NCBI GenBank assembly: GCA_029834535.1
Contig: JAQMWT010000420.1
Location: forward strand, 54,463-118,462
Length of the DNA: 64,000 nucleotides
DNA from: Chrysophaeum taylorii
Taxonomy: Eukaryota > Sar > Pelagophyceae > Pelagomonadales > Pelagomonadaceae
Direction of reading: 5' to 3'
Positions 871 through 62,910 of the stretch are shown piece after piece. Both the position numbers and the translations under genes were made by a program. Below the pieces are notes generated by a model. It made no database searches. It was not told where the DNA came from and saw only the letters and a list, made by a program, of their open reading frames with translations. Positions within the stretch are counted from its first letter, which is position 1. Each line of letters opens with the position of its first letter.

Positions 871-3074
871 ATGAAGGGGGAGATTGTGATCTCTCCTATA
901 CTTGGTAAGGAACGCATTCTCGCGAGGGACACTGGTAGAGCTGGTAGAGGGAATGCCTGCAGCAAAAAATTAGGTTGGCCAAGAAGCTTGGAAGTGACGA
1001 TCACTTGGGAGAATTTAATGGGGGCGACGGGTGCAGTTGGTTCACCGTTGTCAGCTCTTAAACAATTATTAATGTCGAATGGCGAGAGATTCTCTTGCGT
1101 GGTAGTCTGTGATGTGGCAGACTGAGATGTCGATTGAGCAGAACTCTTGAGACACATGGCTGCAGTAACATGAGAAGAGAGCTCATTCCGCCGCTCCGGT
1201 GATAATTGCGCAATAGCATCCGCGGTTAGATTGACAGATTCAGTAGGAGGAATGGCGGGTGGATCACTATTGCCATTTGCGTTCGGTGGAGTTGTAGAGG
1301 AATTGGGTGCAGACACAGATGATTGGTCTGCCCCATAGTTTAACGACGTTGAGGTCGAAAGCATATGTATATCAACATCCCTTGCGATATCTTCGGCATA
1401 GGAAAGTTGATCATTAAGGCGGAGAATGTCGGAGATGTCATCTGAAGTTGTAGTAGCAATGATATCGGCCGATTGTAGTAAGCTCTCAAACAGCTTGTTG
1501 ATATTTTCTTGCAATTGAGACGTAGTCGCACTTTGGGCAGTATGCTTAGATAGCTCGCGAAATTGATATTTAAGTGCGCGCATCGTGTGCTTTGTGCGAT
1601 CCAAGAACTTCATGTCAGATCGAGCGGGTCGGTCAGACGTGCGCGCATAAATAGGTCGGTCGTTAGATTGACCAGGACTGCGAGCTCTGGTGACATCGGA
1701 GTCTCGAGGGCCGTAGTATATCATTAGGTGAGAAAGGCTGACGAGCGTCTTTTGAGTTGCGGAGGCGTCGTGCGTTAAAAGCGGGTTTTGACTGTTGTCC
1801 CTGTGCTGGAGTGGTAAGCGATGCGAAAACATGCGCTGTGTGTTCCAGTTCAGAGTGCGTGTTGTCCAACAGCTGAGTCGAGAGTAATTTGGGTTTCTGG
1901 TGGGTGGATAACCCTTCAACATAAGGTATCCAGGAGACTGGGGGTTCGAGACGCCTTCTCTCGCTTGCGTTGGAAACGGAATTATAGAGATCCAAAGCAA
2001 ACTCAAGAATAGCTGCTGAATCAGACGGATGACATTGCCTGTCGGCTTCAGGACGTGCTCTGACAGAAGATCTTGTCTCATAAATAATGCACCAGTCAAC
2101 CCAGCCTCTATCATAGCGGTTGTTGCTGGTATTATCAGAGAAATGCTTATATAGTTCTTCATATTTTTTGCGACTAAGTGTAGATTCGTCGAACTGTAGA
2201 TTTGTCTCATCCTGGTTAAGCTGAAAAGAGAGATGTATGAAGGACTGCACACATTCAACGAAGACATGTACATACCAGTTAGGATTGTACACAACAGCGT
2301 TAAATTGCTGTTTCTAATACGAAACATCGTTACTGGAAACAGTTTCATAACAGTTAAAGGCAATGAGCATTTTGGCTCGGGTATTGTTAGGGTGGTAGTG
2401 CCGATTGTATACCTCCGTAATGGCTGGCGATGCCGCAAGAGCGGGTTTCCCCACACTTTCGTGGTTAAAGAAGGTATACGAAAAGGTGGCATATGTAAAT
2501 TGGTAAGTTTGCCAATCGGCATGTGAAAAGGCAAAGGTGGACACTGGAGCGTTGAATCTCTCATCAAAGGCGAGCTCACGGGGGTAGTTACCGTTGAGCT
2601 CCCGTTCGGCGTCTTTAAGGGGTTATTTATTTCGGGGCGAAGAGCCCGGACCTCATTACCGTAGCAGACAGTGGCCAACTGTCCAACTTCGGGGTCTGGT
2701 AAGTTTGGGAGCGCCTCAGATGTGAAGTGCCAGCTCTGATATTCAGGAAGCAAGTCTTCAGCATCTTGGAGGTTGAGTTCTAACATTATGGCACGTTGCC
2801 AGTCCAGGAAAACCTGGTCTAAGATCCCATTGCGCTTGACTTCGTAGTCAGGGCAGGACCTCGTGTAAGCCTCATACGAATCGAATTCGAAGAGGGCTCC
2901 TGCGTGGTGGAAGCGCAGTAATTGCCTAATCTGTCTCACTTGGAGCGAGACCTTCCGGCTTTGAAGCTGAAACCGATTTCCATCGTTGAGAAACTCAACA
3001 ACAGGGCCCTCTAACTTGAGAGTATCCGCGCCAGTGACTGCCTTGGGTGCGGCTCTTGCTGCTCGTTCCGCCAT
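871..3074 (-). pseudogene. Gag of family 1, copy A (frameshifted)
   Basis: The chosen start is the ATG at 3074, giving MAERAARAAPKAVTG, conserved in B (34048) and C (57827). The N-terminal ~150 residues match the other copies. The reading then shifts frame near 2620, is carried by a second minus frame over roughly 2292-1720 (NPNWYVHVF, NNRYDRGWVDWC, ARRLRNSKDARQPF), and returns to the first frame to the T-S-L-N-Y motif at about 1340. The protein is mostly helical in appearance and lacks the CCHC zinc knuckle common in copia Gag. It would form the virus-like particle shell. Two compensating frameshifts and divergence mark it as dead. Confidence 0.8.
1336..1358 (-). repeat. SLNY motif (copy A, end of gag)
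   Basis: This is the 21-bp family-1 motif with a variant middle (GTTGAGGTC). It encodes S-T-S-T-S-L-N-Y in the gag frame, between Gag and the protease-proximal region. Confidence 0.8.
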
Positions 3075-3256
3075 GAGAACGGTGACGTGAACCTATGGTT
3101 CGGTCAGAGCAGTTGACAACAGTGAGACATTCTAAGGGGGTCTGTCTAGCGGCGTCCACGCACACTCATCAGGTAGACAATGGAAAGCGCTTATATGGCA
3201 ACTGTACAAACGGTGCTTCCTGCCAGTGTGAAAGGGCATGCACGGACAGGCAGTTG

Positions 3257-10462: not shown

Positions 10463-10653
10463 TGTCAGAATTCTGCTTCGGACACAGCTTAGACTGCACT
10501 CGCATATTATGCTCGTATGACGCACCCGGTTCGCTCGTCTCCGTTCACACTGCAGGTTCCATCTTGCTGAACTCTGAGCTCACCGGCTGCTATTGCGATT
10601 CGCACCCAGTCGACATTCTCCGCAGCATCCGCGAGGATAACCTCCAATCTCCC
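10463..10653 (+). pseudogene. Family-2 internal segment of F, right of hAT (possible protease)
   Basis: The frame entering from the left flank of hAT continues here for about 60 codons until the SINE-like repeat G2. It contains a CSYDAPGSLVSV segment followed by a hydrophobic run. This could be a drifted retropepsin motif (compare L-D-S-G-A-S in family 1), and the position after gag fits. The extra residue and missing D-[ST]-G make this a weak call. Confidence 0.35.
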
Positions 10654-11019
10654 CTTACCCTGATCGCCGACTGCGGTTGCGATGGAGGACGGTGCCTCAT
10701 GAATCCTGAGCCTTGCGAGGGCATCCGCCCTCCCGGCGTAGGTTGGCACCTATTCGCCTCCCGGGCGGGCCGGTTGGCAGCCGGAACGTTCGCAGTGGGA
10801 CGGGGTATGGCCGGGGGGCAAAGACGGAAGGTTATCGACGAGTTGGTTGTCAGTCACATCGCGGTCTCCTCGTCGCATGGCGACAAGCTTGATGGTCACT
10901 CTCCGCCGACCGACCTTTCGGCGCTCCTCGTCTACAGGCCCGTGATTCCGGACTGGCACCTGTCGGTCCGGCCTGGCTCCCATGCTCGGGAGAGGTCTGA
11001 AGTTAGTTTAAGTTAGTTA
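10654..11019 (-). repeat. SINE-like repeat G2
   Basis: It matches G3-G5 along its length in reverse orientation, from TACCCTGATCGCC to the GTTAGTTTAAGTTAGTTAG tail. No clear target duplication is seen, though both flanks contain CTCCA. It interrupts element F. Its plus-strand frame (starting at 10699) encodes the same ~103-residue product as in the other copies. Confidence 0.8.
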
Positions 11020-15939: not shown

Positions 15940-17842
15940 TTAGGACTTGGTGGAGCTGAGAGTCGATTTGACCATTTTGAAGAGAACATTAAGAAAGACA
16001 GATACAACAGACAGTGTGTTAGGATTATCGGAGGAGAGGTGGTAGATGTCGTTAATTGTTGCCGGTTCGAGAGTGTTGGAATCATCGTCAGCTTCTACTG
16101 TAAGGTGGTGAACACCAATAGCCGAATGATGTGGTGCCAAGTGAAGGGTGAGTGCAAGTAGAGCATTCAGTATGGATGGCGAAAGATAATATAGTTGAAA
16201 GGTGTCCAGTTGGTTTTTCGAAAAAGTTGGACTTGGCGAACGAAGATAGAAGAGTCTTCAGATTCACATGAGAGCGGACGGAATGCTCTGAAGCATGAGA
16301 GCAACTTGCCACGTATATGAAGGAGGTTATCGTCCGGGGAGGAGTGGCTGGCAGCATGTTGGTCATGAGCGGTGAGTGTTAAGCGAGACAACAGCTCTGT
16401 GATCTTGTACAGTGTTATAAGTAACACGTGGGTGTTGGCTGTAGGAGGGAAGAGCCTCTCCAGGGAGGTGATTGAAGCAATGGCAGCCTCGGTAATATAG
16501 ATTCGAAGAGTTTCCTGGAGTTGGTCGACTTGTTGACACAAGACGTCGAAATCAGCAAGCGAAGCAGAAGACGTAGGTAACGATGGCGAAGACATCTCCA
16601 GAGTAGAGTCTGGCGTGGAGTGTAAGTAGTTTAACGACGTTTCGGTCGACGATTAAAAAAAAAAAGGCGCAGGAAGTCTTAATGTTCTGCCCGAGTATAA
16701 GAGGGGCCGAACCTTACTTCCCGGAGTGATGGCGGTTCTGTATCATCAGAGGATGATGCGTAGTCGTCAAGATGTTGTACACACGATCGAGCAACAGTAC
16801 TAATCAAATGCTGAATGGATGGCTTACATAGCCTGAGCTTTGCGACTCTGTGTTCGAACAAGAGTCACAAGTAACTACGATGCTCAAGGTGCATATGTGT
16901 TATAAGCCGAAGATCCAGTGCGAATGGCCATTGTATGTATGGTAGAATCTGTTGTGGCCAGGGCGGATACGGATAAGATCATGTTAAGAAGTGATGATGG
17001 GTGTTGTGCTAGCATGCTTGTTAAAAGAGTATATAATTCCCTTGGCAAATGATAGATGCGTATGAGGGTAGCGCGTATATGAACAGCTGAGCGCGCATCA
17101 CAAGGGAATTGGAAGGAAGTATCATTGCGAGCACATACGGTAGGTTGTAAAGGCACCTGATCAGTATTGTGACAAGCAAGGCAAATTCCTATAGTAGTAG
17201 CAGAGATGGGGATGTGGCCATTCTTCTTATGGTCGTCCGTGTCGAGGTGACTCCGCATTTCAGTGGGGAGTTCACGAGATGTTTGTGCCTTGGAACTGTA
17301 CGTGGTCGAGACTAGGAAAGTCGGTTGTCCACGATCATCGAGGCACTGCGTACAAAAAAGCCGACAAAATGAAACGTTCGCGTTTGGGGGCCTCTATAGC
17401 AGCCAATAGAAGCAATAGCAGGAGCAGCTTCCCAAGGTATGGTAATGGGTAAGCGCATGGATATGAATGTGGTCAGGTCCACAAACAATGAAAAGTCAGT
17501 AGACTCATAGGGCAGTGTGAGTTCCACTCGCATAAACGAAGAGAGAAATGGGGTGACAGGGACACGGAAGTTCTCAAGGAGAGAGATTCCTCGTTCGGAA
17601 GCAGCATAGTCAATACTGAGGCCGTCCTGGAACGTCAGCGACTGAGGTGAGATATGCACGGCTGGTGTCGGTGCAACCGCAGCAGCCTGTGTGGTAGCAG
17701 TAGTAGCAGTCGTGGTTCGTTGCTTTTGCGACAACCTGGGGGAAGGTTCGGCCGTGGAGAGCGAGAAAGGACTGTCCTTCAACCGACTAGGGAGATGCCG
17801 CGGCCACGGGAGTGCCGAAAAAAGGACGTAGGCGACACTCAC
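15940..17842 (-). pseudogene. D: degenerate third ORF
   Basis: Five short minus frames (17842-17312, 17258-16884, 16861-16679, 16595-16167, 16140-15940) align in order to the intact 660-residue ORF of B. Shared segments include LFVDLTTFISMRLPITIPWE, ICLACHNTDQ and LYKITELLSRLTLTA. Multiple frameshifts and small deletions separate them, and an A-rich run near 16660 lies in a deleted stretch. The pairing with B shows that the third ORF belongs to the family and is not a chance insertion in B. Confidence 0.8.
16627..16647 (-). repeat. SLNY motif (D, third ORF)
   Basis: A perfect copy of the motif core; the frame gives T-E-T-S-L-N-Y within the broken third ORF. Confidence 0.85.
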
Positions 17843-17891: not shown

Positions 17892-17912
17892 TAGTTTAAC
17901 GACGTTGCGGTC
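17892..17912 (-). repeat. SLNY motif (D, after RNase H)
   Basis: The motif lies past the RNase H stop codon in the same frame and reads V-T-A-T-S-L-N followed by TAG in place of Tyr, exactly as in B at 25247. Confidence 0.8.
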
Positions 17913-19806: not shown

Positions 19807-19827
19807 TAGTTTAGCGACGTTGCGGTC
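19807..19827 (-). repeat. SLNY motif (D, integrase/RT junction)
   Basis: Variant TAGTTTAGCGACGTTGCGG: T-A-T-S-L-N-Y, with one base change shared by B at 27154. Confidence 0.8.
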
Positions 19828-21875: not shown

Positions 21876-21896
21876 TAGTTTAACGACATTTCGGTC
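21876..21896 (-). repeat. SLNY motif (D, MTase region/integrase junction)
   Basis: Variant with GACATTTCGG: L-T-E-M-S-L-N-Y, the same as in B (29318) and C (62853). Confidence 0.85.
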
Positions 21897-22724: not shown

Positions 22725-23038
22725 TGCAGAGCATTTAGCAAGCAGTGGTAAGTCACCTGGGAAACCATCCCGTCTCATCGCGAACGTCTGGAAGTATTTC
22801 ATTCGGGGAATGAAAAGGTATGTTCCCTATATCCTCAGAACACGACAGGCGGCATCTAGAACTACACGAGAAGGTAAAGTGTATAGTGCTACATACCTCG
22901 GGGCGCCCTAGACCATGATGATGAGCTTAAGCACAAATCAGAGGACTATTTGATTGTGTACAAAGGGAGAAGCAGGTTAAGGGATAGATGACGTTCTCAA
23001 CGGACGGATAAGGGTAAGAGGCAGCAGATTTCCCTGCA
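22725..23038 (-). repeat. 3' LTR of B (middle LTR)
   Basis: It is 314 bp. The minus strand starts TGCAGGGAAATC (one change from TGCAGAG in the other LTRs) and ends CTCTGCA. It follows the polypurine tract CTCGAGGGGG (23039-23048) and joins straight into D ORF2 sequence at 22724. Confidence 0.9.
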
Positions 23039-23208
23039 CCCCCTCGAGATGTCTTGAACGCAAGGTGCGACTATAGAGCATCTCTTGAGAAAGATGATGA
23101 TGAGGGAAGGAGAAGAAAAAAAAGAAAAAAACAGAAAAAAAAGAAAAAAAAGGGACTACAGTCTTGATGGTCACAGAGGTCACATACGATGCATCAAGAG
23201 TGTAAGAC
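23039..23208 (-). other. B 3' untranslated region with polypurine tract and homopolymer run
   Basis: It holds the polypurine tract next to the LTR and, at about 23112-23152, a T-rich run on the minus strand (A-rich on plus, broken by single G and C). No gene is seen. Confidence 0.6.
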
Positions 23209-25191
23209 TTAGGACTTGGATTTGGTGGAGCTGAGAGTCGACGGGACGCTTTTGAACAGAGCATTACGAAACACTGGTACAACAGAAAGTGTGTTAGGAT
23301 TATCTGAGGTGGTAGACATCGTTACTGGTTCGAGAGTATCGGTATCGTCGTCGTCAGCTTCTGTTGTAAGGTGGTGAACACCAATAGCAGAATGGTGTGG
23401 TACCATGCGAAATGTAAGTGCAAGTAAAGCATTCAGTATGGATGGCACCAATGAGTCAAGTTGTAGGGTGTCCAGTTGTGTTTCCAAGAAGTTGGACTCA
23501 GCGAACGGATCTGAGAAGATAGAAGGGTCTTCCGATTCACATGCTAAGGGAATGCTTTGAAGACACGAGAGCAGATTGTCACGCAGATGATGGAGGTGAT
23601 CGTCCGGGGAGGCGTGATTGGCAGCATGTTGGTCATAAGCTGTAAGAGTTAAGCGAGACAGCAGCTCTGTGATCTTGTACAGTGTTATGAGTAACACGTG
23701 TGCATTGGCAGTAGGAGGAAAGAGCCGGTTCTCCAGGGAGGTGATTGAAGCAATGGCAGCCTGTAGATCAGTGCGCAGAGATAGATTTTCAGCGCTGAGG
23801 GTGTTAACCTTGCGGATATATAGGCGCAGGGTTTCCTGGAGTTGCTCGACTTGCTGATGTAAGGCATCGACATCAGCCGAGGCAGAAGAAGCAGGGTGTG
23901 TCGATGGCGAAGTCCTTTCCAGAGTAGGTTCTGATGTGGAGAGTGAGTAGTTTAACGACGTCTCGGTCAACACATGCTGTGCAAGTAGGGGGTATTTCGC
24001 GTTTAGAAAGCGCAGAAAGTCTTGATGTTCTGCCTGAGTATAAGTGGGGCCGAACATTACATCCAGGAGTGACGGCGGTTTTGTATCATCTGAGGATGAT
24101 ACGTAGTCGTCAAGATGTTGTACCCACGATTGGGCAACAGTATTAATCACATGGTGGGATTTGGAGGGCTTGAACATAGCCTGAGCTTTGCGACTCTGTG
24201 TTCGAACAAGAGTTACAAGAAAGTTAAGATGCTCAAGGTGCATCTGTGTAATAAGCCGAAGATCCAGTGCGAATGGCAGTTGAGTGGTGGAATCTGTGGC
24301 TGCATCGGATACAGATAGGATTAAATGAGCAAGTGACGGGTATTGCGTTAGATTGCTAGTCAAAAGAGTATATAACTCCTTTGGCAAATGATAGGTGCGT
24401 ATGATGGTCGCGCGTATATGACCAGCTGAGCACGCATCACAGGGGGATTGGAAGGAAGTAGCATTGCGGGCACATACAGTAGGTTGTATAGGCACCTGAT
24501 CGGTGTTGTGACAAGCACAGCAAATGTTCATGGTAATAGCAGAAATGGGGATGTGACCATTCTTCTTATGGTCGTCCGTGTTGAGGTGACTCAGCACTTC
24601 AGTGGGGAGTTCACGAGGTGTTTGTGCCTTGGAACTGTATGTGGTAGAGACAAGGAAGGTTGGTTGTCCCAAATTGTTGAGGCATTGCGTACAGAAGGAT
24701 GACAAAATGAAACGTTCGCGTTTGGGGCCTCTGTAGCAGCCAATAGAAGCAATAGCAGGAGCAGCTTCCCAAGGTATAGTAATGGGTAGGCGCATGGATA
24801 TGAATGTTGTTAGTTCCACGAACAGTGAAAGGTCAGTAGACTCATAGATCGAGTTGAGTGCCGTAGCGATTTCCGCTCGCATAAAAGAAGAGAGAAATGG
24901 GGTGGCAGGGACACGGAAGTTCTCAAAGAGAGAGATTCCCCGTTCAAACAGGGGAAAATCCATGTTGAGGCCATCCTGGAGTGTTAGGGATTGATGTAAG
25001 GTATGTTCAGCTGGTGTCGGTGCGACAGCAGCAGCCTGGGAGGTAGCAGGAGTAACAGTGGTCATGGGTTGTCGCTTTTGCGATAACTTGGGAGAAGGTT
25101 CGGCCGTGGAGAGCGAGCGATGAATTGTCCTTCGAACGACTGGAGAGATGCCGCGGCCACGGGAGTGCCAAGAAAAAGACATGAGCGACAC
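23209..25191 (-). CDS. B: third ORF, Cys-rich protein of unknown function (env position)
   Basis: An intact 660-codon frame lies between RNase H and the 3' LTR. No family is recognised. Residues 180-260 contain several C-x2-C pairs (FCTQC, CCACHN, CARN, CDACSAGH), suggesting one or two zinc sites. About residues 430-500 look like a coiled coil (DVDALHQQVEQLQETLRLYI, then LENRLF). The motif T-E-T-S-L-N-Y occurs at about residue 410, suggesting the product is cut in two. No signal peptide or clear transmembrane helix is visible, which argues against a classical envelope glycoprotein. A degenerate copy exists in D. It probably needs its own subgenomic or spliced RNA, since stops separate it from RNase H. 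It could be a nucleic-acid-binding accessory protein or a captured host gene. Confidence 0.65.
   Translation of the reverse strand: MSLMSFSWHSRGRGISPVVRRTIHRSLSTAEPSPKLSQKRQPMTTVTPATSQAAAVAPTPAEHTLHQSLTLQDGLNMDFPLFERGISLFENFRVPATPFLSSFMRAEIATALNSIYESTDLSLFVELTTFISMRLPITIPWEAAPAIASIGCYRGPKRERFILSSFCTQCLNNLGQPTFLVSTTYSSKAQTPRELPTEVLSHLNTDDHKKNGHIPISAITMNICCACHNTDQVPIQPTVCARNATSFQSPCDACSAGHIRATIIRTYHLPKELYTLLTSNLTQYPSLAHLILSVSDAATDSTTQLPFALDLRLITQMHLEHLNFLVTLVRTQSRKAQAMFKPSKSHHVINTVAQSWVQHLDDYVSSSDDTKPPSLLDVMFGPTYTQAEHQDFLRFLNAKYPLLAQHVLTETSLNYSLSTSEPTLERTSPSTHPASSASADVDALHQQVEQLQETLRLYIRKVNTLSAENLSLRTDLQAAIASITSLENRLFPPTANAHVLLITLYKITELLSRLTLTAYDQHAANHASPDDHLHHLRDNLLSCLQSIPLACESEDPSIFSDPFAESNFLETQLDTLQLDSLVPSILNALLALTFRMVPHHSAIGVHHLTTEADDDDTDTLEPVTMSTTSDNPNTLSVVPVFRNALFKSVPSTLSSTKSKS
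23948..23968 (-). repeat. SLNY motif (B, third ORF)
   Basis: TAGTTTAACGACGTCTCGGT: L-T-E-T-S-L-N-Y in the frame of the third ORF. Confidence 0.9.
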
Positions 25192-25246: not shown

Positions 25247-25267
25247 TAGTTTAACGACGTTGCGGTC
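25247..25267 (-). repeat. SLNY motif (B, after RNase H)
   Basis: It lies 18-38 bp past the RNase H stop (TGA at 25285-25287) in the same frame, and its Tyr codon is replaced by TAG. It is retained at the nucleotide level although untranslated in a simple reading. Confidence 0.85.
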
Positions 25268-25284: not shown

Positions 25285-26484
25285 TCAATCCTGTAAAGGA
25301 TTGTCGTCAGAGGCATGATGCATACCGAGTAGAGAGCGAAAGGCGGAGAACTCAGCAGCAAGTGGCTTTGTAAAACCATCCGCCACGTCTAGCTTGCCGG
25401 GTACATGAAGGACTCGTATTTTATATAGCGAGATGTACTCACGGATCTTAAACCATCTGGTCGACAGTGCCTTGGATCGAGAAGACCCATCTGGGTTATT
25501 AGAGGTGTGAACAGCGGCAGCATTGTCAGACAAGAGAGGTAGGCTTCTGATGAAGCGCATATCTTCAGCAATTGGGTTGTCATTGTCATCGAAGTCAACA
25601 GGATCAGCGGTGTTCTCACCATTAGCATTGTTGACGTAGAAGGTGGGGTTGACGACAAAGGAGAGTTCCAACAGCAGCTTGCGTAGCCAAACAGCTTCAT
25701 CAGCACAAATACTGAGGGCAATCAACTCAGCTTCGTGAGTTGAGCAGGAGACAATCGGTTGAAGTTTGCTTTTCCAACCAATAAGGCAGTTGAAAAGATA
25801 GAAGACAAACCCGGTGGTAGATTTCCTATCTTCCTGTGCTAAGGAAGGGGCGTTGTCAGCGTCAACCATGGCAACTAAGGGATCAAACTGTCCAGTAGAT
25901 ACATCCTGCGGTTGGTAGTCGACCACAGTGGATAGATCAATTCGATTAGCGGAGACAGTGCGAAGGTGAGCTTCAATGGCATTACCTTTAGGATGGAACC
26001 AGAGGCGAAGTGAGCGGTTTTCCGGCTTCTTGAGGTAGCGAAGCAAATGCTCTAGCATTTGGACGTGAACATACGTGGGTGCATGCATACCACGCGAACA
26101 TCTGCCCAAGGCTTGCGAGAAGTCAGGTCTGCAGGCCACTTGCATGAACACCAGCTTGCCAAGGAGGGTGGCAAAGTGCGAATTGATGTACAACTCTGTT
26201 TCAGAGCTGGGAGTGCCATCTTTATACTTGAAGGACGATGACATAGGATATTTAAGCGGGGTCAGTTGCTGCAAGACAGGGTGATCAGCGAAGAGTTCAT
26301 CCAGCTTGGCTTGCACATCCAGAGAAATGGAACCGTCAGATGTGCGACACACACGCATGCCTAGGAGGGTATGGACAGGTTCAAACTGCTCTACAGCATA
26401 CCGTTTGTGGAGGGCAACCTGTAACTCTGTACGAAGAGTGTCGTAATGGACATAATAACAATGTCGTCTACAGACAGACTGCAT
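25285..26484 (-). CDS. B: reverse transcriptase C-terminus and RNase H
   Basis: Functional homology starts near residue 25. It comprises RT thumb/connection (PVHTLLGMRVCRTSDGSIS; VACRPDFSQALGRCSRGMH; LLRYLKKPENRS) and a complete RNase H with its acidic residues (AMVDADNAPS; STTGFVFYL; VSCSTHEAELIAL; LLSDNAAAVHTS) and the copia C-terminal signature (STRWFKIREYI; HVPGKLDVADGFTKPL). RNase H degrades the RNA strand during cDNA synthesis. An insert rich in Asp/Asn between EL and RFIRSLPLLSDN is larger than usual for copia. The frame is separated from the RT N-terminal frame by a 1-bp difference next to S-V-D-D. Translation of the whole pol would therefore need a shift or is lost. Confidence 0.85.
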   Translation of the reverse strand: MQSVCRRHCYYVHYDTLRTELQVALHKRYAVEQFEPVHTLLGMRVCRTSDGSISLDVQAKLDELFADHPVLQQLTPLKYPMSSSFKYKDGTPSSETELYINSHFATLLGKLVFMQVACRPDFSQALGRCSRGMHAPTYVHVQMLEHLLRYLKKPENRSLRLWFHPKGNAIEAHLRTVSANRIDLSTVVDYQPQDVSTGQFDPLVAMVDADNAPSLAQEDRKSTTGFVFYLFNCLIGWKSKLQPIVSCSTHEAELIALSICADEAVWLRKLLLELSFVVNPTFYVNNANGENTADPVDFDDNDNPIAEDMRFIRSLPLLSDNAAAVHTSNNPDGSSRSKALSTRWFKIREYISLYKIRVLHVPGKLDVADGFTKPLAAEFSAFRSLLGMHHASDDNPLQD

Positions 26485-27795
26485 ACGACGAACTTAGCAT
26501 GTGCGGATACTCGAGCATATAGGCAAGAGTCCGAATGCAGGCGTTTGTAGCCAAGGCTACGGAAGAAGCCGTCTATCTCTTTGTTCCAAAGAGATGGTGA
26601 TTGCCGAAGTCCATAAAGTGACTTCAGCAGTTTCGGTAGACGTCGGCCCTTGTACTTAGCGTCATCGGGGTCGATAAGCTTGATGCCGTCTGGTAACTGA
26701 ACATAGACGTTGGCATCAATGTCAGACTGAACGAAGGCGTTCGGGACGTCTGCATGGTAGACGGGCAATTGCTTGTATGCTGTAATAGCTAGTAGTACCC
26801 GGATTGCGGTCATTGTGGCCATGGGGCTGAAGGTGCCAAAGAAATCGGCGCCAAGAGATGCTAGGAAGCCACGTAGCACGAGGCGAGCCTTGTGCTTAAC
26901 GTATTTGCCTGCAGAGTCTGTTTTAATCTTCAGCACCATCCTGCTGTCAATAGGGCGAGAGACACCGTCGGGTAAGGAAAGTTTGAAGCAGCCAAAGCGG
27001 ATAATGTCGTGGAGTTCCTTGGCGATGGCCTTGAGGTAGGCGTGCCTGTTTTCAGGCGACATACCGTGGAGGCACTTGAGTTTATATTCGTCAATGGAAA
27101 CGTCCGCTTCTTGGACCTTATATTCGTCAGGACCAACAGTGGCTGGTGAATTATAGTTTAGCGACGTTGCGGTCGAGGCAGTGTGCGCAACTTCGGGATA
27201 AGCGGAAACAGCGTCAGTAGGAGTAGGAGAAGCAGATTCCAGTTGAATATGGATAGTAGGGTCGGTGTGTAAGACCTGGGTGATAAACTCTGTAGAGACC
27301 AGAAGGTATTCCTCCAAGTCAGCCAGAGATGCAGAAGTAGCGCCAAACTCGGAGGAGTTGTGATCAATAAAGCTGGTCGGCGCCAGGTACGTAAGTGCAT
27401 ATTGTAAGGAAGAAGTGCCAAAGGCAGCAGCGTGTTCAGTGAACGCAGATAAAAGGGGCTGAGGAATGGGGCACGTAGGTGAACCATCAGCAGTTAAAAA
27501 GGTTGCAGCTGGGATGCTGGATGCGCACTTGGCGTGGGCGAAGTAACCATCGACGTGCGGGTAGCGGGCAAGTAAGTCAGTGCGCAACGGGAGAAGAAGA
27601 CGAGCTAACAACGCATGTTCCCCTCTGAGCAGATAGCAGACCAGAGGATACCACCATTGAGATGAAGGGCGGAGAGGGCGGGAGACTTGAACGTAAGAAA
27701 GTGGTGGCGAAGATCCCAGCGGAAATCGGCGAGTTTGCCACCAGCGGCTTTGTAAGCACCAATAGTAGACGCTTGCAGCCGGGCTTGGATATTTT
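26391..27795 (-). pseudogene. B: integrase-RT linker and reverse transcriptase N-terminal two-thirds
   Basis: The frame carries the linker (TYLAPTSFIDHNSS, PTIHIQLESAS), the T-A-T-S-L-N-Y motif, and the RT fingers/palm: MVLKIKTDSAGKYVKHKARL, FFGTFSPMATMTAIRVLLA, VYHADVPNAFVQSDIDANVY, LLKSLYGLRQSPSLWNKEI and VCSLSVDDIVIM, the catalytic Asp pair with Ser where copia RT normally has Tyr. Just after this a 1-bp deletion relative to D (about 26447) shifts the frame. Upstream, 27605-27799 is open in another frame continuing from the end of ORF2, so two frame changes are needed to go from integrase to RT. The enzyme is recognisable but unlikely to be made intact. Confidence 0.8.
27154..27174 (-). 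repeat. SLNY motif (B, integrase/RT junction)
   Basis: T-A-T-S-L-N-Y between the integrase linker and RT. It shares the single-base variant (TTTAGCG) with D. Confidence 0.85.
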
Positions 27796-30700
27796 TCATA
27801 GAAGTGCCTTGCGGGTGTTAGGTTGTTTGGAACCTGGGACAAGAATGAGGTCATCTTGTGCAAAAAGGTCTTTGTAAGAAGGAAGCAAGGGCGGCGGTGA
27901 CATAGAGCCAGAATCGTCGGCGAGAGCGTCAGAAGAGGGAGAAGAGGCAGGAGCAGGGGACGAAGAAGGAGCTGAAGGAGGTGGGGAGTGCCCCCTCTGA
28001 GGATGAGGAGTCCGTGTCCCCCTCTGAATGACATGGTCTTGGATAGCGGCGTGGGGTGTGAGCGAGAAAGGCGCGGGAGGAGCGTGAGGCGGAGGAGCAA
28101 GTTCAGGATCAGGAGTAGGATGCTGAAGCATGTAGAGGAATTGCAGCTTGGACGAAACACGAATTTGTCCGTTTTCAGGGTTGAGGACGACGTCAGCGAG
28201 ATGGTCGACGCGTGGGGAGACGAGCGGGTTTTGCGCGTTGGCGCAACAGAGATATAAGTATTTGCGGCGGCACGGTTCCCACTTGTGGTGTTCGTGGGGC
28301 TCCAATAAAAGGTAACATTCAGCGCCAAAAATCTTGAGCATGTCATGTTGGGGAGTGTTGAGTTGGTTGTAGAGTAGCTGTTGCGGACTCAGGATAGCAT
28401 GATGAATGCGCTCGAGCGTGGCGTTCGGGAGAAGGTTGTAGCTTTGGACGGTGTGTATCACCGCCCACGGAAACATGATGGCTGGTTCCACGATCTTGGC
28501 GCCACGATAGTGAGCATTAAGGAGAGAACGAAGGCGAGTTGAGGAGGCGGAGGCGATGAAACCGATGGCGGACTCAACTTCAAAGTTAAAGTGGTGCATG
28601 TACGGCGGGAAAGCGATGAGTTGAATGCCCTTATCGACGCGGTACGGGGAGGTAATGTGCTGGCTAAAGTAGGGCTTGAAGGCATCGGAGTAGAGGGTGC
28701 GCATGTGCACGTTGAGTTGTGTACGACAGAAGTCATACACAAAATCCAGAGCTTGAGTGAACTCCGTGGCGTTGGTGGTGCGTGTAAAGTACACCAAGAG
28801 AAATTTCGAAATGAGTTCCTTGAAGACGATGATATGTGTGAAGCCTCCCCATTCGGATGGGATGGTCACATAGCCGCCGTCGCACGCCCAGACTTCGCCG
28901 GCTTTGTGAGTTTGCTCAAAAGAAGGCTTGGTCGCATTGAAATGCTTGTGCGGGTGGCGCTTGTTGTGTGCGATGCAGTCGGTGCATAAGTCGCGATATG
29001 GTATGTCAGAAGCAGAGAATCCAGGGCGAGCAAGTACGTTGGGGGCCTTGGCAGCGACGTTGTCGGGGCAGTGGTGCACCCGGTGGAAGCGATCGGCACG
29101 TTCTTTGGCATTGAGATGTTCGGTAGATCCGTGTGCGAAGGACTTACGATAAATGGGATGAGCGCGAATATGACGTTTGCGCCGAACATCGAACTTGAGT
29201 TCGGTGTGCAAGGCAGGGGGGGGCGGTGCGTCGTCATCCTGGTGCGCAGCAGGGTCACTTGGAGGTGCATCCTCATCATCACGAGTAGCGAGAGTATCTT
29301 CGTAGGACGAAGATATATAGTTTAACGACATTTCGGTCAAGCAGTTGCTGGAAATAGACATCATAAAAGATTGTGCCAAAGACAAGGTATCTGTGCTGCA
29401 CGTGGTGGAGGCCTGGTCAACGGTCAAAAAATTGGATACGTAGGATTTCTTCGTCACGGCAGCAGTATGTTGGAAGGTAGGGTCCAACATAAGGGATTTA
29501 ATATCGGCAACGAGGAGCGAAAGGTGCTTGTACAGAGTGCTGTACGTACCGGCAGGCAGAGCATTGCTGAGCATGTCACAGCAAAGGTCATGGCGTAGAG
29601 ACAAGAGGAAAGATTCCTGTTGTTTGGTGTGGTTGTTAGCACGAATCAACTCCGGTCGAGTGGGGTAGCGTAATTTCCCGTTGCGAGGGTCAAGTAAAAT
29701 AATATTGGCGTACCCTCGGACGGTGGGCAATGGAGCAAGCATAGAGTGGATTTTAGAGCCGAGTTTGCGGTCACTTCCACGAAGGTACCCTATATAGCGA
29801 CTATGAGATAAGTGGTGATCTTCCAGAGCAAAATGAGAATCCTTGTAGTCGAAAGAGTTGTCGGTGGCCTTGTAGGTAAGGCAGCCAGGCATCACAAGAG
29901 AGCATCTGGACAAGAGCTTTTGTATGGCGGTGCCATAGGTGGCAGCGGAGCCAACTTGAGGGAGGGCTTGGACTATCCACAAGTAACCCATAAACGGCTC
30001 CAAATATATGGACCTATCCCGGTCGCGGGGAATGTCGGAAGCAGTGAACGTATACGTGCTTCCAAACGCGTCAATAGAAGCATGATATTTGGTGGTGGCG
30101 TTCTCTATGGTGAGGTTGCCGTCAGAGTGGTGGCCACCAGTTAAGAAGTGGGAGTTGTGTGATGTTGATGAGGTTGTAAGTAGTAACCTGTGTGACGGTT
30201 GGTTAGTTTCGAAAACGGTTATGTAATAGGACACAGGAGTGGGTGAGTTAGTGTGTAATCTGGCAAACAAGTTATAGAGGATTGTAAAAACCTTGACGTG
30301 TATAGGGTAGGTTGCATTGGGTAGCGGCTCCATAGAGGAGCGTTTAAAGCACAGCTGATGATAAGTACACTCGGATTGAACAGAGTGAGTACGTTGCTCG
30401 TGAGCCTGTTGTGAGTGAAGGCGAAGCAGTAACATATTGAGGGATTCAAGGTCAGCCATAGTAAGCTGAACAGAACCTGTGCGAGAGTAAGGTGCAAACG
30501 TTTTAGGAACGGGGATATATGGAGGATCGGGGAACACCCGGATCCAGTCTTTGGATACGTGTTTAGGTAGCCAAAGGCGCTTGGGAATAGCTTGTAGATC
30601 ATCCACGATCTTTAGGAAGGGGCGTGGATGGAGGATAGGCCACGACAATAATTTAATTGGTCCAGTAGAATACCTGCGTGCGATGCATATCCATCTTTCT

Positions 30701-31200
30701 CTAGATTGGTAGTCGCCACAGAGGTAGGTCGGGAACCTATCAACAACATCGACACAGTAATCAATTATAGCATGTATGAGGTTGGCCACTGTGATGTGGT
30801 CTTGATGACAGTACTTATGCGGAGGCGTCATCTCAGCCAGTAGTACCAAGGGCTGGAGTAGCTTGATGACAGACAGCATGCTGTCGAAAAGAGAATCGTC
30901 CAGCAGGCTGTGTAAGTCTTTGGTCTTATGCTGCTTTAGTAGATTCCTGTTCGTGCAGGGAGGAGCAATCTCAATTATATCACTACAGAATTTGCGCCTT
31001 TCCTCTGGTGAAATTAGGTGAATATGGTTAATAAAGGCGGGGAGAGATTCAAATAATAATACAGTAGGGAAACGGTGGCGTAACATACGAACAAGCGTAT
31101 CATCAGACTCAACAACAACTTTTACATTGATATTTAAGCCTAAGTCATTAGTGGCTTGAGACAGGAACGCCGGAGTTGACAAACCAGAACAAAGTAACAT
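27796..31200 (-). CDS. B: ORF2, C5-methyltransferase-like domain fused to copia integrase
   Basis: This is an intact 1134-codon frame. Residues 1-~340 look like a cytosine-5 DNA methyltransferase: motif I (3-15, LLCSGLSTPAFLSQ), acidic motif II (E31), motif IV with the catalytic Cys (EIAPPC, PPC at 80-82), motif VI position (VLLAEM, 119-124, Met for Asn-Val), motif VIII (QSRERWICIARR, 165-176), motif IX-like (QLTMADLESLN) and motif X (PNATYPIHVKVFTILYNLF). A region without known domain and the motif T-E-M-S-L-N-Y follow. Integrase comes next: an H-H-x~30-C-x2-C zinc site (HHCPDN ... LCTDC) and the D, D, E catalytic triad (WACDGGY, LYSDAFK, FEVESAI). The start ATG at 31200 is in a different frame from the protease ORF. 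It probably acts as a pol precursor. Whether the MTase is active or only binds DNA is unknown. Confidence 0.8.
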   Translation of the reverse strand: MLLCSGLSTPAFLSQATNDLGLNINVKVVVESDDTLVRMLRHRFPTVLLFESLPAFINHIHLISPEERRKFCSDIIEIAPPCTNRNLLKQHKTKDLHSLLDDSLFDSMLSVIKLLQPLVLLAEMTPPHKYCHQDHITVANLIHAIIDYCVDVVDRFPTYLCGDYQSRERWICIARRYSTGPIKLLSWPILHPRPFLKIVDDLQAIPKRLWLPKHVSKDWIRVFPDPPYIPVPKTFAPYSRTGSVQLTMADLESLNMLLLRLHSQQAHEQRTHSVQSECTYHQLCFKRSSMEPLPNATYPIHVKVFTILYNLFARLHTNSPTPVSYYITVFETNQPSHRLLLTTSSTSHNSHFLTGGHHSDGNLTIENATTKYHASIDAFGSTYTFTASDIPRDRDRSIYLEPFMGYLWIVQALPQVGSAATYGTAIQKLLSRCSLVMPGCLTYKATDNSFDYKDSHFALEDHHLSHSRYIGYLRGSDRKLGSKIHSMLAPLPTVRGYANIILLDPRNGKLRYPTRPELIRANNHTKQQESFLLSLRHDLCCDMLSNALPAGTYSTLYKHLSLLVADIKSLMLDPTFQHTAAVTKKSYVSNFLTVDQASTTCSTDTLSLAQSFMMSISSNCLTEMSLNYISSSYEDTLATRDDEDAPPSDPAAHQDDDAPPPPALHTELKFDVRRKRHIRAHPIYRKSFAHGSTEHLNAKERADRFHRVHHCPDNVAAKAPNVLARPGFSASDIPYRDLCTDCIAHNKRHPHKHFNATKPSFEQTHKAGEVWACDGGYVTIPSEWGGFTHIIVFKELISKFLLVYFTRTTNATEFTQALDFVYDFCRTQLNVHMRTLYSDAFKPYFSQHITSPYRVDKGIQLIAFPPYMHHFNFEVESAIGFIASASSTRLRSLLNAHYRGAKIVEPAIMFPWAVIHTVQSYNLLPNATLERIHHAILSPQQLLYNQLNTPQHDMLKIFGAECYLLLEPHEHHKWEPCRRKYLYLCCANAQNPLVSPRVDHLADVVLNPENGQIRVSSKLQFLYMLQHPTPDPELAPPPHAPPAPFSLTPHAAIQDHVIQRGTRTPHPQRGHSPPPSAPSSSPAPASSPSSDALADDSGSMSPPPLLPSYKDLFAQDDLILVPGSKQPNTRKALL
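29318..29338 (-). repeat. SLNY motif (B, MTase region/integrase junction)
   Basis: L-T-E-M-S-L-N-Y in the ORF2 frame, about 625 residues from its start and before the integrase zinc site. Confidence 0.9.
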
Positions 31201-34567: not shown

Positions 34568-34882
34568 TGCAGAGCATTTAGCAAGCAGTGGTAAGTCACC
34601 TGGGAAACCATCCCGTCTCATCATGAACGTCTGGAAGTATTTAATTCGGGGAATGAAAAGGTATGTTCCCTATATCATCAGAACACGACAGGCGGCATCT
34701 AGAACTACACGATAAAGGTAAAGTGTATAGTGCTACATACCTCGGGACGCGCGAGACCATGATAATGAGCTTGAGTACAAATCAGAGGACTATTTGATTG
34801 TGCATAAATGAAGAATAAGGGTAAGGAAGAGATCACGTTCTCAACGGGCGGATAAGGGTAAGAGGCAGCAGATTTCTCTGCA
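34568..34882 (-). repeat. 5' LTR of the B/D insertion
   Basis: It is 315 bp, with TGCAGAG/CTCTGCA ends, next to CTGCT (34883-34887) on the outside and the primer-binding site on the inside. It is probably a recombinant of the D and B 5' LTRs. Confidence 0.85.
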
Positions 34883-34887
34883 CTGCT

Positions 34888-35740
34888 GGATAAGGTTGTG
34901 CGAGACACGTATCCCTCGAGGCAAGTCAATCCATACCGGGCGATCGAGTGCCGATTGGATGAATGCCTGGGGAATGTCCGCGTGCGCTACCGGGAGCTTG
35001 TGCTTCACAGCGATGGCGAGCAATAACCGGCTGGTGGCGAGCATTGCGGTTGGTGAGGATGTGGCATAAAAGTCAATGCCTACACGTGCCAAGAAACCTC
35101 GGGCAACTAGACGAGCTTTATAGCGGTCTGGGGTGCCGTCAGCAAAATACTTGATCTTCAGCACGAGTTTCGTCGAGATAGACGAACGGTCGGGCGGTAA
35201 AGGTTCCAGCTTGAAGACACCGTTGGAGCACAATCCTTCAATTTCTTTGCGGATCGAAGCAATATGCTTTAACTTATCTTTTTCACGGAGTCCTTTGAGT
35301 TCGACAATCTTCTCAGGCTCATAGACAATATCTTCAGCAGTCACGAGTTGTAACACGACATGGTCGATGTGCTGCAAGTCATAGTCCATGACTTCTTGGA
35401 TAATGTCTTGATTCGGATCACTTTGACTTCGAAAGAGGTGTCCGAGTTCGCCATAATCATGCATGAAGGCGTGTCTGTGACGAGAAGCTATGTGGTAGTG
35501 CTGATGCGCTGATATGTCCCATAAGAGAGAGGAACTCATACAAAAGAATGCTTGGTTCCATTGACGCAAATAGTACTCTGGCGGTGACAGTTCGTCGTGG
35601 CACATATAGTTCGCGAGAACACAATTTTCGTTATCCAGGTGGTCGACCAATACAGACGAGTGGTACGGCTTCCTTGGGAAGTCAACGTACAAGAGTTCTG
35701 CGTCGGTTTCTCTCTGCAGATCCAGTGCAGTGCCGCCCAT
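34888..35740 (-). pseudogene. E: reverse transcriptase N-terminal part
   Basis: The frame has a linker (HRHAFMHDYGELGHLFRSQS), then copia RT fingers and palm: LVLKIKYFADGTPDRYKARL, VARGFLARVGIDF, LPVAHADIPQAFIQSALD and WIDLPRGIRVSHN. It stops at the LTR of the nested insertion and resumes at 15484 with ALYGLKQ and S-V-D-D. RT would copy the element RNA in the particle. The protein is clearly related to, but distinct from, that of family 1 (different motifs around HADIPQAF versus HADVPNAF). Confidence 0.9.
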
Positions 35741-45330: not shown

Positions 45331-45382
45331 TCTGTCGATTAGTAGTAAGGATAGTAAGGAAGGATTCCCGCGCCGTGCTAGC

Positions 45383-45736: not shown

Positions 45737-46105
45737 ACTAACTAACTAACTTCAGACCTCTCCCGAGCATGGGAGCCAGGCCGGACCGACAGGAGCCAGT
45801 CCGGAATCACGGGCCTGTAGACGAGGAGCGCCGAAAGGTCGGTCGGCGGAGAGTGACCATCAAGCTTGTCGCCATGCGACGAGGAGACCGCGATGTGACT
45901 GACAACCAACTCGTCGATAACCTTCCGTCTTCGCCCCCCGGCCATACCCCGTCCCACTGCGAACGTTCCGGCTGCCAACCGGCCCGCCCGGGAGGCGAAT
46001 AGGTGCCAACCTACGCCGGGAGGGCGGATGCCCTCGCAAGGCTCAGGATTCATGAGGCACCGTCCTCCATCGCAACCACAGTCGGCGATCAGGGTAAGGG
46101 TAAGG
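45737..46105 (+). repeat. SINE-like repeat G4
   Basis: A head-to-tail copy of G3, ending CAGGGTAAGGGTAAGGGT. The tail resembles a telomere-type (GGGTAA)n run of three units. Confidence 0.8.
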
Positions 46106-59656: not shown

Positions 59657-61084
59657 ATGAAATTATTAGATCGAACAAACCACACCTTAAACACCCTGCG
59701 AGAACAGTGTAGCGAACTCACGAAGCATGTGACAGATAATGATACCACGGCTCAGCTACAACATAATATCAACAAGTTATTTGAGACTTTGCTACAATCA
59801 GCCGATATCCTGTCAACAACATCTACTGAGGACAACAGTAGTTTACTTCGTCTAAACGAACAGCTCATGTTTGCAGAAGACATCATTTATGATGTAGACG
59901 TTCATCTATCCTCGACCGAAAAGTCGTTAAACTACGTGGAGCCACAACACCATACTGTCGTTACTGCTCCCACCCCAACAACAACTCCTCCTACTACAAA
60001 CACACAGGGTAATCCTTCCAATACTGTGTCTAACCTCTTTACCGCTTCCGCCATCTCGGCTTTACCACCAGCATTATTGTCCTCGCTATCTTCACAGGTC
60101 CAATCTGCCCTCAACCTACCATCACAAGCCGAAACCAAAAGGGATGCCGATCACACCTCTCTATCGTCATTTGACGAAAAGCACGGCATGGCTGATGAGG
60201 CTGACGAACCATCACCACCTGTTCAACCGATCATTATTCCAACGAATCTGTTATTGCTGAAGAACTTCTTTACAGCCAGCCTCTCCACTACTTGCCCACA
60301 TTCGGAAAACGCCTTCCTCACCAACTACATGAAGGTAAACAGTGTCCCTCCACATTGCTCTTTCCTATATTTTGACTCTTGTGCTACCATCTCATTGATG
60401 TCCACCTACGATTTCGCAATACCCAATCATATAATTCCATTGGACTCCACATACGCTCCGATTGTTATTCAGACGGCAACAGGACAACAACGGGCATCAC
60501 ACATGATGTTAACACGCAGCATCGTTATTCCCCTACCAGATCATCCACAAGTTGGCTATGTTAAGATCGACTTCGCTTTATGTCTTCAGCCAGTGCATGA
60601 CCGACATCTCGCTATCCTGAGCATGCTCGAGTGGAACCAGACGAACCTGACCACTGTGTTCAACGATCGAGCTGAGCCAAAGCTCAGCGCTGTCACGAGC
60701 CGCATAGACAAAGATGTACGTATACCCATACACTATGTAGCAGCTAATTTACCTGCTCTCCCTTGTATCACTTACAACATCGCGCGCGACAAGCGGCTGG
60801 AACTTCGCTCCCTTGCATTTCCCCTCAAGCGATACCATGAAAACAGGGAGCTACTGGCATACTACAATTACCTACTCCAACGATTTACCAGATCGGCCGT
60901 GGATTCGCCCTTTGGTTCTCAATCTTCGGAAACAGAACAAATTTGTTCAGCAAAATACCCAGCCATTAAGTTGACTACTTTCACGGCCAGTTTTTCTCTC
61001 ACAAGAGTCCAATCTCCGCAAACCCTCTGTCATGTTACTTTGTTCTGGTTTGTCAACTCCGGCGTTCCTGTCTCAAGCCACTAA
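59657..61084 (+). CDS. C: Gag C-terminus and retropepsin (DSCA variant)
   Basis: This 475-codon frame starts MKLLDRTNHTLNTLREQCSE (Gag C-terminus), then STEKSLNYV at about residue 91, a Thr/Pro linker, and the protease LYFDSCATISLM (about residue 245) with ATGQQRASHMML and ILSMLEWN. It ends SGVPVSSH at 61084 and overlaps the ORF2 start (61032) by 53 bp in the +1 frame. Translation of ORF2 as a fusion would need a +1 shift in this overlap. Compared with copy A, the active-site Gly is Cys. It probably processes Gag-Pol if active at all. Confidence 0.8.
   Translation: MKLLDRTNHTLNTLREQCSELTKHVTDNDTTAQLQHNINKLFETLLQSADILSTTSTEDNSSLLRLNEQLMFAEDIIYDVDVHLSSTEKSLNYVEPQHHTVVTAPTPTTTPPTTNTQGNPSNTVSNLFTASAISALPPALLSSLSSQVQSALNLPSQAETKRDADHTSLSSFDEKHGMADEADEPSPPVQPIIIPTNLLLLKNFFTASLSTTCPHSENAFLTNYMKVNSVPPHCSFLYFDSCATISLMSTYDFAIPNHIIPLDSTYAPIVIQTATGQQRASHMMLTRSIVIPLPDHPQVGYVKIDFALCLQPVHDRHLAILSMLEWNQTNLTTVFNDRAEPKLSAVTSRIDKDVRIPIHYVAANLPALPCITYNIARDKRLELRSLAFPLKRYHENRELLAYYNYLLQRFTRSAVDSPFGSQSSETEQICSAKYPAIKLTTFTASFSLTRVQSPQTLCHVTLFWFVNSGVPVSSH
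59914..59934 (+). repeat. SLNY motif (C, Gag/protease)
   Basis: GACCGAAAAGTCGTTAAACT: S-T-E-K-S-L-N-Y-V. Confidence 0.9.
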
Positions 61085-62910
61085 TGACTTAGGCTTAAAT
61101 ATCAATGTAAAAGTTATTGTTGAGTCTGATGATACGCTTGTTCGTATGTTACGCCACCGTTTTCCTACTGTACTATTATTTGAATCTCCCCCCGCCTTTA
61201 TTAACCATCTTCACCTAATCTCACCAGAGGAAAGGCGCACATTCTATTGTGATATAATTGAGATCACTCCTCCCTGCACAAACAGGAATTTACTAAAACA
61301 ACAAAAGTCAGAAGACTTACACAGCCTGCTGGACGATTCTCTTTTCGACAGCATGCTGTCTGTCATCAAGCTACTCCAGCCCTTGGTACTACTGGCTGAG
61401 ATGACGCCTCCGCATAAGTACTGTCACCAAGACCACATCACAGTGGCCAACCTTATCTATGCTACTCTTGATTACTGTGTCGATGTTGTTGATAGGTTCC
61501 CGACCTACCTATGTGGCGACTACCAATCTAGAGAAAGGTGGATATGCGTCGCACGCAGATATTCTACTGGACCAATTAAACTATCATCGTGGCCCATCCT
61601 CCATCCACGCCCCTTCCTAAGATCGTGGATGATCTACAAGCTATTCCCAAGCGCCTTTGGCTACCTAACCACATATCCAAAGACTGGATCCGGGTGTTCC
61701 CCGATCCTCCATGTATATCCGTTCCTAAAACGCTGGCAACTTACTCTCGCACAGGTTCTGCTCAGCTTACTCTGGTTGACCTTGAATCCCTCAATATGTT
61801 ACTACTTCGCCTTCACTCACAACAGGCTCACGAGCAACGTACTCACTCTGTTCAACCCGAGTGTACTTACCATCAGTTGTGCTTTAAACGCTCCTCTATG
61901 GAGCCATTATCCAACGCAACACATCCTATACACGTCAAGATTTTTACAATCCTATATAACGTGTTTGCAAGCTTACATACTAACTCACCCACTCCTGTGT
62001 CCTATTACATAACCGTTTTCGAAACTAACCAACCGTCACACAGGTTATTACTTACAACCTCATCAACATCACACAACTCCTACTTCTTAACTGGTGGCCA
62101 CCATTCCGACGGCGACCTCACCATAGAGAACGCCACCACAAAAAACTCCACTCCCATTAATGCCTTTGGGAGTACGTATACGTTCACTGCTTCCGACATC
62201 CCCCGCGACCGGGACAGGTCCATATATCTGGAGCCGTTTATGGGTTACTTGTGGATAGTCCCGCCATACAAAACCTCGTGTCCATATGCGCTCTCATTAT
62301 GCCTGGCTGCCTTACCTACAAGGCCACCGACAACTCTTTCGATTACAAGGATTCTCTTTTTGCTCTGGAAGATCATCACCTATCTCATAGTCGCTATATA
62401 GGGTACCTTCGTGGAAGTGACCGCAAGCTCGGCTCTAAAATCCACTCAATGCTTGCTCCATTGCCAACCGTCCGAGGGTATGCCAATATTATTTTACTCG
62501 ACCCTCGCAACGGGAAATTACGCTACCCCACTCGACCGGAGTTGATTCGTGCTAACAACCACACCAAACAACAGGAGTCTTTCCTCTTGTCTCTACGCCA
62601 TGACCTTTGCTGTGACATGCTCAGCAATGCTCTGCCTGCCGGTACGTACAGCACTCTGTACAAGCACCTTTCGCTCATCGTCGCCGATATTAAATCCCTT
62701 ATGTTGGACCCTACCTTCCAACATACTGCTGCCGTGACGAAGAAATCCTATGTATCCAATTTCATGACCGTTGACCAAGCCTCCACCACGTGCAGCACAG
62801 ATACCTTGTCTTTGGCACAATCTTTTATGATGTCTATTTCCAGCAACTGCTTGACCGAAATGTCGTTAAACTATATATCGTCGTCCTACGAAGATACTCT
62901 CTACTCGTGA
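61032..62910 (+). pseudogene. C: ORF2, methyltransferase-like region (frameshifted)
   Basis: The frame 61032-62012 starts MLLCSGLSTPAFLSQ and holds the MTase-like motifs: VIVESDD, IIEITPPC (catalytic Cys), LVLLAEMTP and QSRERWICVARR. It leaves the true frame near 61590-61620; the correct continuation is 61589-62260 (VDDLQAIPKRLWLP, QLTLVDLESLNMLL, motif X-like SNATHPIHVKIFTILYNVF), then 62251-62910 to L-T-E-M-S-L-N-Y. A further deletion relative to B near 62260 removes ~20 residues after YLWIV. The motif set is the same as in B, which argues that it was under selection in the family. This copy is broken. Confidence 0.75.
62853..62873 (+). repeat. SLNY motif (C, MTase region/integrase junction)
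   Basis: GACCGAAATGTCGTTAAACT: L-T-E-M-S-L-N-Y-I, 70 bp before the integrase-bearing frame. Confidence 0.9.

Follow-up and report, generated by a model that had tools for sequence, protein, structure and literature searches.

Nucleotide-level conservation of a 21-nucleotide motif repeated in polyprotein linkers of Chrysophaeum taylorii retroelements

In the retrotransposon Ty1, the site between protease (PR) and integrase (IN) is given as VPTIN/NVHTS (the slash marks the cut), cleaved after Asn and with a hydrophobic P2 residue, and the other two sites given in the same passages have Ala and His before the cut (PMC6952103). Cytosine methyltransferases are carried by LINE, DIRS and Gypsy retroelements, and Symbiodinium Copia elements are described without a DNA methyltransferase (DNMT) in the passages of de Mendoza (2018; PMC5890265). 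Here we describe a 21-nucleotide (nt) motif that recurs in retroelements of the pelagophyte Chrysophaeum taylorii, starting from a 64,000-nt stretch of contig JAQMWT010000420.1 (assembly GCA_029834535.1, positions 54,463 to 118,462; the whole stretch is hereafter “the window”) in which 12 copies, most of them encoding T-x-x-S-L-N-Y, lie in Ty1/copia-type elements. RNA viruses offer another comparison, as they carry dispersed packaging or RNA-protein binding motifs, usually short stem-loops.

Broadly, the elements studied here resemble Ty1/copia processing in having sites at the Gag/PR and integrase/reverse transcriptase (RT) junctions, and the Asn cut of the Ty1 PR/IN site recalls SLN/Y, but the three Ty1 sites given differ from one another, whereas here a single 21-nt sequence recurs and is conserved as nucleotides. 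As with the packaging motifs of RNA viruses, a short motif is repeated along the genome with some copies in coding sequence; unlike them, it has 17 specified bases, no shared local fold and a position at inter-domain linkers. A gypsy element with a DNA_methylase match, RT, RNase H and integrase in one open reading frame (ORF) is akin to the DNMT retrotransposons of PMC5890265, for which the passages concerned mention no repeated motif. A literature search covering titles, the beginnings of abstracts and passages of PMC5890265, PMC6952103 and PMC9998398 yielded no recognisable description of the motif.

Base conservation in copies of the motif

All 12 copies listed in the initial annotation match GACCGNAANGTCGTTAAACTA with 0-1 mismatch (Table 1), no other position of the window comes closer than 5 mismatches, and 0 matches at ≤3 mismatches were obtained from 20 dinucleotide shuffles of the window, so that the repeat itself is real. 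The peptide then assigned to every copy, T-x-x-S-L-N-Y, is encoded by ten of them, those at 17892 and 25247 reading TATSLN-stop. The nucleotide identity, described as unusually high, is indeed unusually strong, although the copies are not simply identical: differences between sites fall at motif positions 5, 6, 8 and 9 (mostly 6, 8 and 9; the “free” bases), and the remaining 17 bases are nearly fixed. Eleven window copies belong to one copia family (A) and the copy at 1336 to a second (B; family letters A-E are labels of this analysis).

Across the host genome (70.8 Mb, 697 contigs), 1094 exact copies of the 21-mer (545+549) and 1301 copies of its 12-base core GTCGTTAAACTA (646+655) were counted, with reversed-pattern controls of 0+0 and 0+3, respectively. 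A relaxed pattern, with both middle codons free and the wobble base open in Ser, Leu, Asn and Tyr, gave 1317 matches (control 8). Among the 100 relaxed matches listed, base 7 was A and base 10 was G in 100/100, with GAA (81), GCA (16), TAA (2) and AAA (1) as first middle codon and ACG (37), AAG (27), ATG (21), GCG (10) and five others as second. In the same 100 matches, Ser was encoded by TCG in 97 and TCA in 3, the Leu position read TTA in 90, CTA in 9 and TTC in 1, and Asn was AAC in 99 and AAT in 1; the Tyr codon was TAC in 58 and TAT in 42, its third base, which the 21-mer no longer includes, being free. From codon usage in the long open frames of 11 sequence pieces, the chance of finding ACC, TCG, TTA and AAC together at one site is 0.0046.

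Because exact motif searches select for conservation, copies were also collected solely by the protein sequence of their flanks. At integrase/RT we used a 60-residue upstream flank, scored 150 of 500 candidates and fetched 40 places, of which L098, L100, L109, L116 and L117 were dropped (indels or absence) and L122-L123 were set apart as family A, so that 33 loci of family B remained. For the Gag/PR site (65-residue flank), 150 of 335 candidates were scored and 40 fetched, L225 was dropped and 7 from the same list were added (n = 46). At integrase/RT, pairwise difference was 0.323 at 4-fold sites of the flank vs. 0.085 at the wobble bases of Thr, Ser, Leu and Asn, 0.024 at the first and second bases of these fixed codons, 0.000 at the wobble bases of variable codons (bases 1, 7 and 10) and 0.187 at the free bases; with four more loci from the integrase/RT list (n = 37), flank 4-fold sites, fixed-codon wobble, variable-codon wobble and free bases gave 0.315, 0.077, 0.018 and 0.217. 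The corresponding Gag/PR values were 0.276 at flank 4-fold sites vs. 0.022 at the Thr, Ser, Leu and Asn wobble bases, no more variation than at the first two bases of fixed codons (0.043), with 0.014 at variable-codon wobble bases and 0.356 at the free bases. The comparison of synonymous sites suggested in the initial annotation thus finds third bases inside the motif far more conserved than 4-fold sites outside it. Seven random third-position columns of the flank were equally invariant with a probability of 4e-5 at integrase/RT and in 0 of 200,000 draws at Gag/PR; for the young family A alone (n = 13), where this test is without power, P was 0.10.

Recent homogenisation had been offered as one cause of this identity, and the course of divergence speaks to it. 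Pairs were binned by flank difference, using 38 loci at Gag/PR (L208 and L225 dropped) and 33 at integrase/RT. Over the Gag/PR bins, whose flank difference runs from 0.009 to 0.447, the free bases keep pace (0.017, 0.062, 0.121, 0.273 and 0.42), whereas the 17 fixed bases do not (0.0196, 0.0186, 0.0256, 0.0324 and 0.0324). The fixed bases are also flat at integrase/RT (0.078 for the 6 closest pairs, 0.028-0.050 beyond), where the free bases follow the flanks less regularly, reaching 0.227 and then dropping to 0.133 in the most distant bin. Homogenisation between sites is thus disfavoured, since conversion of the whole motif would have levelled the free bases too. Intact 17-base sets were found in 18 of the 25 family B loci at Gag/PR (flank mean 6.9, maximum 14) and in 25 of the 33 loci at integrase/RT (flank mean 5.7, maximum 14). 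Overall, this indicates long-term purifying selection on the nucleotides themselves at 17 of 21 motif positions, among them the third bases of codons with no fixed amino acid. A conserved polyprotein linker is readily mistaken for a site of protease action; the third bases of this motif indicate that its nucleotides are selected, and their conservation is greater than a protease site would need.

Carrier elements, motif places and reading frame

The main carriers are Ty1/copia-type elements, with an RVT_2-type RT and the integrase domains upstream of it; in L011, one continuous ORF spans integrase and RT and holds both motif sites. Family A has five sites, i.e., Gag/PR (TEKSLNY), pre-integrase (TEMSLNY), integrase/RT (TATSLNY), post-RNase H (TATSLN-stop) and ORF3 (TETSLNY), the copy at 23948 preceding a Ser/Thr/Pro-rich stretch and a coiled-coil-like stretch (judged by eye). 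From pieces fetched around motif matches for nine family A elements, all five sites were recovered in six (L009/L010, L011/L012, L013/L014, L015/L016, L017/L018 and L025/L026), with one changed residue in the ORF3 site of L016 and L026; L019/L020 is without the pre-integrase site, L023/L024 is without the ORF3 site, and the contig of L021 ends before Gag/PR. Family B has two additional sites, one in Gag (TEMSLNYGPERF) and one that separates PR from the methyltransferase (MTase)-like region (L028, L082; few copies read). The same motif bases occur in a gypsy-type element (L027, L034, L039), as a pair 29 codons apart in Gag that encloses a 22-residue spacer. In L125 (1-5000, minus strand), the continuation of gypsy element L027, RVT_1, RNase H, integrase and DNA_methylase (E 0.0004) lie in one open frame, and its coding strand has no motif match at ≤4 mismatches, leaving the Gag pair in L027 as the only gypsy motifs there. 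The fixed places at domain junctions proposed in the initial annotation are therefore borne out in many copies.

The site after RNase H ends in SLN-stop at 14/14 sites, the base following TA being A or G in every case, and in family A (17892 and 25247) it lies ~12 codons past the pol stop. Stop codons precede it in families A, C, D and E and are absent before it in the one family B copy read, i.e., they are present in 4 of 5 families. In this stretch the motif is unchanged despite widely differing flanks, among copies picked by motif matches. Measured from the end of RNase H, the distances to the motif differ by whole codons, which suggests that the tail after RNase H may once have been translated. 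Downstream, the sequence continues as TTAAACTARCCC in L012, L028, L032 and L015 and as TAGTCC in L038.

Orientation and frame were read from the first 100 of the 1301 core sites listed for the genome, all covered by fetched pieces. Every one of these sites lies in a retroelement and in sense orientation, 98 being assigned by match to a retroelement protein of another piece and the other two, with self-matches excluded, being those of L027. SLN-Tyr is read in frame at 76 sites; there are 1 in-frame SLN-stop and 16 further SLN-stop sites, 5 SLN-Tyr sites whose best spanning match is in another frame, and 2 SLN-Tyr sites without a spanning match, both the family B Gag site. The 17 SLN-stop sites comprise 14 post-RNase H sites, one Gag/PR site, one integrase/RT site and one that is unassigned. 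Of the five other-frame sites, L033, L036 and L040 have one additional base within the A run, which shifts the frame inside the motif, L038 is a more strongly altered relative, and L053 is close to the end of its contig; L036, L038 and L040 are related ORF3 copies. The coding site classes (~eight, including two for which few copies with short flanks were read) share one reading frame, and some of these classes may be related by duplication.

Most copies of both copia families have DSCA[TS] as protease-like motif (window ~31863, minus strand, and 60371, plus strand; L002, L009, L030 and L037), and the copy near window 855 (minus strand) has DSGA. DSCA[TS] is a change at the usually fixed glycine of D-S/T-G-A. 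For the MTase nature of the pre-integrase region, the hhalign match is collinear but weak (E 0.028, probability 1.7%).

Candidate functions of the motif

We favour, at a probability of about 0.5, the reading that the motif is a cis-acting sense-strand nucleotide signal, most simply an RNA site in inter-domain linkers. Nucleotide conservation, the 100/100 sense orientation, retention past the pol stop and occurrence in two superfamilies together argue for a nucleotide signal, with RNA favoured over DNA. The additional RNA or DNA role raised in the initial annotation is thus supported by flank-chosen copies, and the motif probably acts as an RNA (or DNA) signal and not just as a place of protein cutting. 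Its candidate reader would be an RNA-binding protein of the element or host, or a guide RNA, and the bound factor may handle the genomic RNA, e.g., in packaging or processing, RNA rather than DNA being the molecule presumably selected. The placement in polyprotein linkers and just after pol would follow if seven extra codons are tolerated only there. The motif peptide may in addition be a protease site, perhaps cut before Tyr (TxxSLN/Y).

Several observations weigh against the sense-strand signal. A second sense frame is also open, yet a single frame is used, which is unexpected if the peptide is irrelevant and suggests that the peptide matters as well. At integrase/RT, the excess of wobble over first- and second-base difference (0.085 vs. 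0.024) comes mostly from TCG to TCA in 4/33 loci, and in family A the synonymous variant TTA to CTA is present in 6/10 integrase/RT sites, so that some amino-acid constraint may act too. Local folding of the 12 sites gave z below -2 at 1/12 and no common fold, and Rfam had no match in window 14000-36000. A constant presence of the motif at junctions, the test set in the initial annotation, fails in family D (one copy, L124), where it is absent at the integrase and integrase/RT junctions; by our own alignment the linker is ~6 codons shorter at these motif-less junctions, and a degenerate motif follows RNase H, the probable RNase H end lying in the neighbouring piece L015. The folding result also rules against one specific candidate, a conserved local RNA hairpin.

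Cleavage by a retropepsin as the main function, with TxxSLNY cut at junctions and the codon identity due to recent copying or homogenisation, appears quite unlikely to us. It would suit the position of linker-like sequences at domain junctions in one frame (76 of the 100 core sites in frame as SLN-Tyr), the spacer of 22 residues between the gypsy motifs and the SLN-stop of the terminal site (14/14), and Ty1 protease does cut after Asn at PR/IN, one of its three given sites (PMC6952103). Synonymous variants (TCA, CTA and AAT) exist as well, and the wobble excess at integrase/RT is what amino-acid constraint would leave, but this is reversed at Gag/PR (0.022 vs. 0.043), and third bases of variable codons differ by only 0.014 and 0.000. 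Neither the divergence of free bases with the flanks, contrary to homogenisation, nor a codon set with a chance of 0.0046 per site would be expected from such cleavage, nor would a motif that is common to copia and a gypsy element and stands beyond stop codons after RNase H in 4/5 families read; the protease-like motif is, moreover, mostly DSCA and not D-S/T-G-A. If self-cleavage occurs, the Asn-Tyr bond is a plausible candidate (SLN/Y), because the post-RNase H copy has a stop in place of Tyr and the Ty1 PR/IN site is cut after Asn. The HIV site SQNY/P is cut after Tyr, and by analogy a cut after Tyr is conceivable here. The 2A/StopGo signature is NPGP, and the motif peptide TxxSLNY, being without it, was rejected as a 2A peptide.

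Nucleotide-level conservation would fit equally well a site in double-stranded DNA (integrated or cDNA), bound by a host or element protein and serving methylation, silencing evasion or integration, and the DNA_methylase match of the gypsy element would agree with this, as would the weakly supported MTase-like region of the copia elements. We nevertheless consider a DNA site unlikely, as it could be antisense (one antisense frame is open) or non-coding, whereas all 100 core sites are sense, and the probable long terminal repeats (LTRs; direct repeats of ~394 nt, Table 1) have no motif match at ≤4 mismatches. Small-RNA targets resemble the motif in length and mismatch pattern, so that a host guide RNA of ~21 nt could pair with bases 10-21 and 1-4 and tolerate mismatches at 5, 6, 8 and 9; a silencing target, though, would be expected to be lost by synonymous change, not kept, which makes this highly improbable unless the element benefits.

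Returning to the sense-strand signal, the nucleotides appear to be selected at several sites per element and in two superfamilies, for which common descent of such a site would be unexpected, and this suggests that rival retroelements of one genome share an RNA (or DNA) reader. It is tempting to extend this to an RNA punctuation code, in which one cellular trans-acting factor would read the 21-nt mark in copia junctions and gypsy Gag while the mark also encodes a shared C-terminal tail (TxxSLN), a tentative idea that we hold to be more doubtful than probable.

Relatives and other features of the window

A homologue search with the RT piece found 196 sequences, of which 120 were listed; the closest named relative among the matches listed is a transcript of the pelagophyte alga Aureoumbra lagunensis (52% identity). 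No SLNY was found in P0007-P0023, the nearest outside RT relatives among the matches listed, and single SLNY strings occur in other contexts in the RT homologues P0090 and P0092. For protein pieces P0003 and P0002 the homologue search found none. When a viral or prokaryotic source of the motif was considered, the 17-base pattern turned up in 33 viral and 34 prokaryotic stretches (counts alone), the latter against ~30 that chance would give in 257 Gb by our own estimate; such a source was set aside. In precomputed domain annotations, the metagenome proteins P0024, P0025 and P0026 combine RVT_2 and PF00145 DNA_methylase in one protein, i.e., they are copia-type with a DNMT.

Table 1. Motif copies and element features in the window.
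Feature	Position	Strand	Basis or remark
Motif, Gag/PR site of copia family B (TSTSLNY)	1336..1356	-	inside ORF 828-3074
Motif, ORF3 site (TETSLNY)	16627..16647	-	second, decayed element copy
Motif after RNase H, SLN-stop (TAG)	17892..17912	-	second element copy
Motif, integrase/RT junction (TATSLNY)	19807..19827	-	Leu codon CTA
Motif before integrase (TEMSLNY)	21876..21896	-	
Probable 3' LTR of central element	22725..23117	-	repeat of 34568-34961
ORF3, downstream of pol	23209..25191	-	
Motif inside ORF3 (TETSLNY)	23948..23968	-	
Motif after RNase H, SLN-stop (TAG)	25247..25267	-	~12 codons past pol stop
RNase H end of pol	25285..26484	-	position and sequence; without Pfam match
ORF with copia RT	26391..28346	-	RVT_2 (PF07727) E 2.5e-36
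Motif, integrase/RT junction (TATSLNY)	27154..27174	-	Leu codon CTA
MTase-like region and integrase, copia family A	27796..31200	-	rve E 0.0014, SH3_retrovirus E 0.00027; neither reaches the curated cut-off
Motif between MTase-like region and integrase (TEMSLNY)	29318..29338	-	
Motif, Gag/PR junction (TEKSLNY)	32318..32338	-	
Probable 5' LTR of central element	34568..34961	-	repeat of 22725-23117
Motif, Gag/PR junction (TEKSLNY)	59914..59934	+	third element copy
Motif before integrase (TEMSLNY)	62853..62873	+	third element copy

No tRNA gene was found in the window. A minus-strand ORF at 38910-39611 matches DNA_methylase (E 0.005, which misses the curated cut-off), and 37245-38006 has a Gag_p17-like match (E 0.0067); these are possibly parts of another DNMT-bearing retroelement. 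Other repeats of the window (43468-45156, 45375-46034, 10644-11008 and 58627-59000) are a duplication with a period of ~1043 nt and a repeat of 300-360 nt in four places, one of them inverted.

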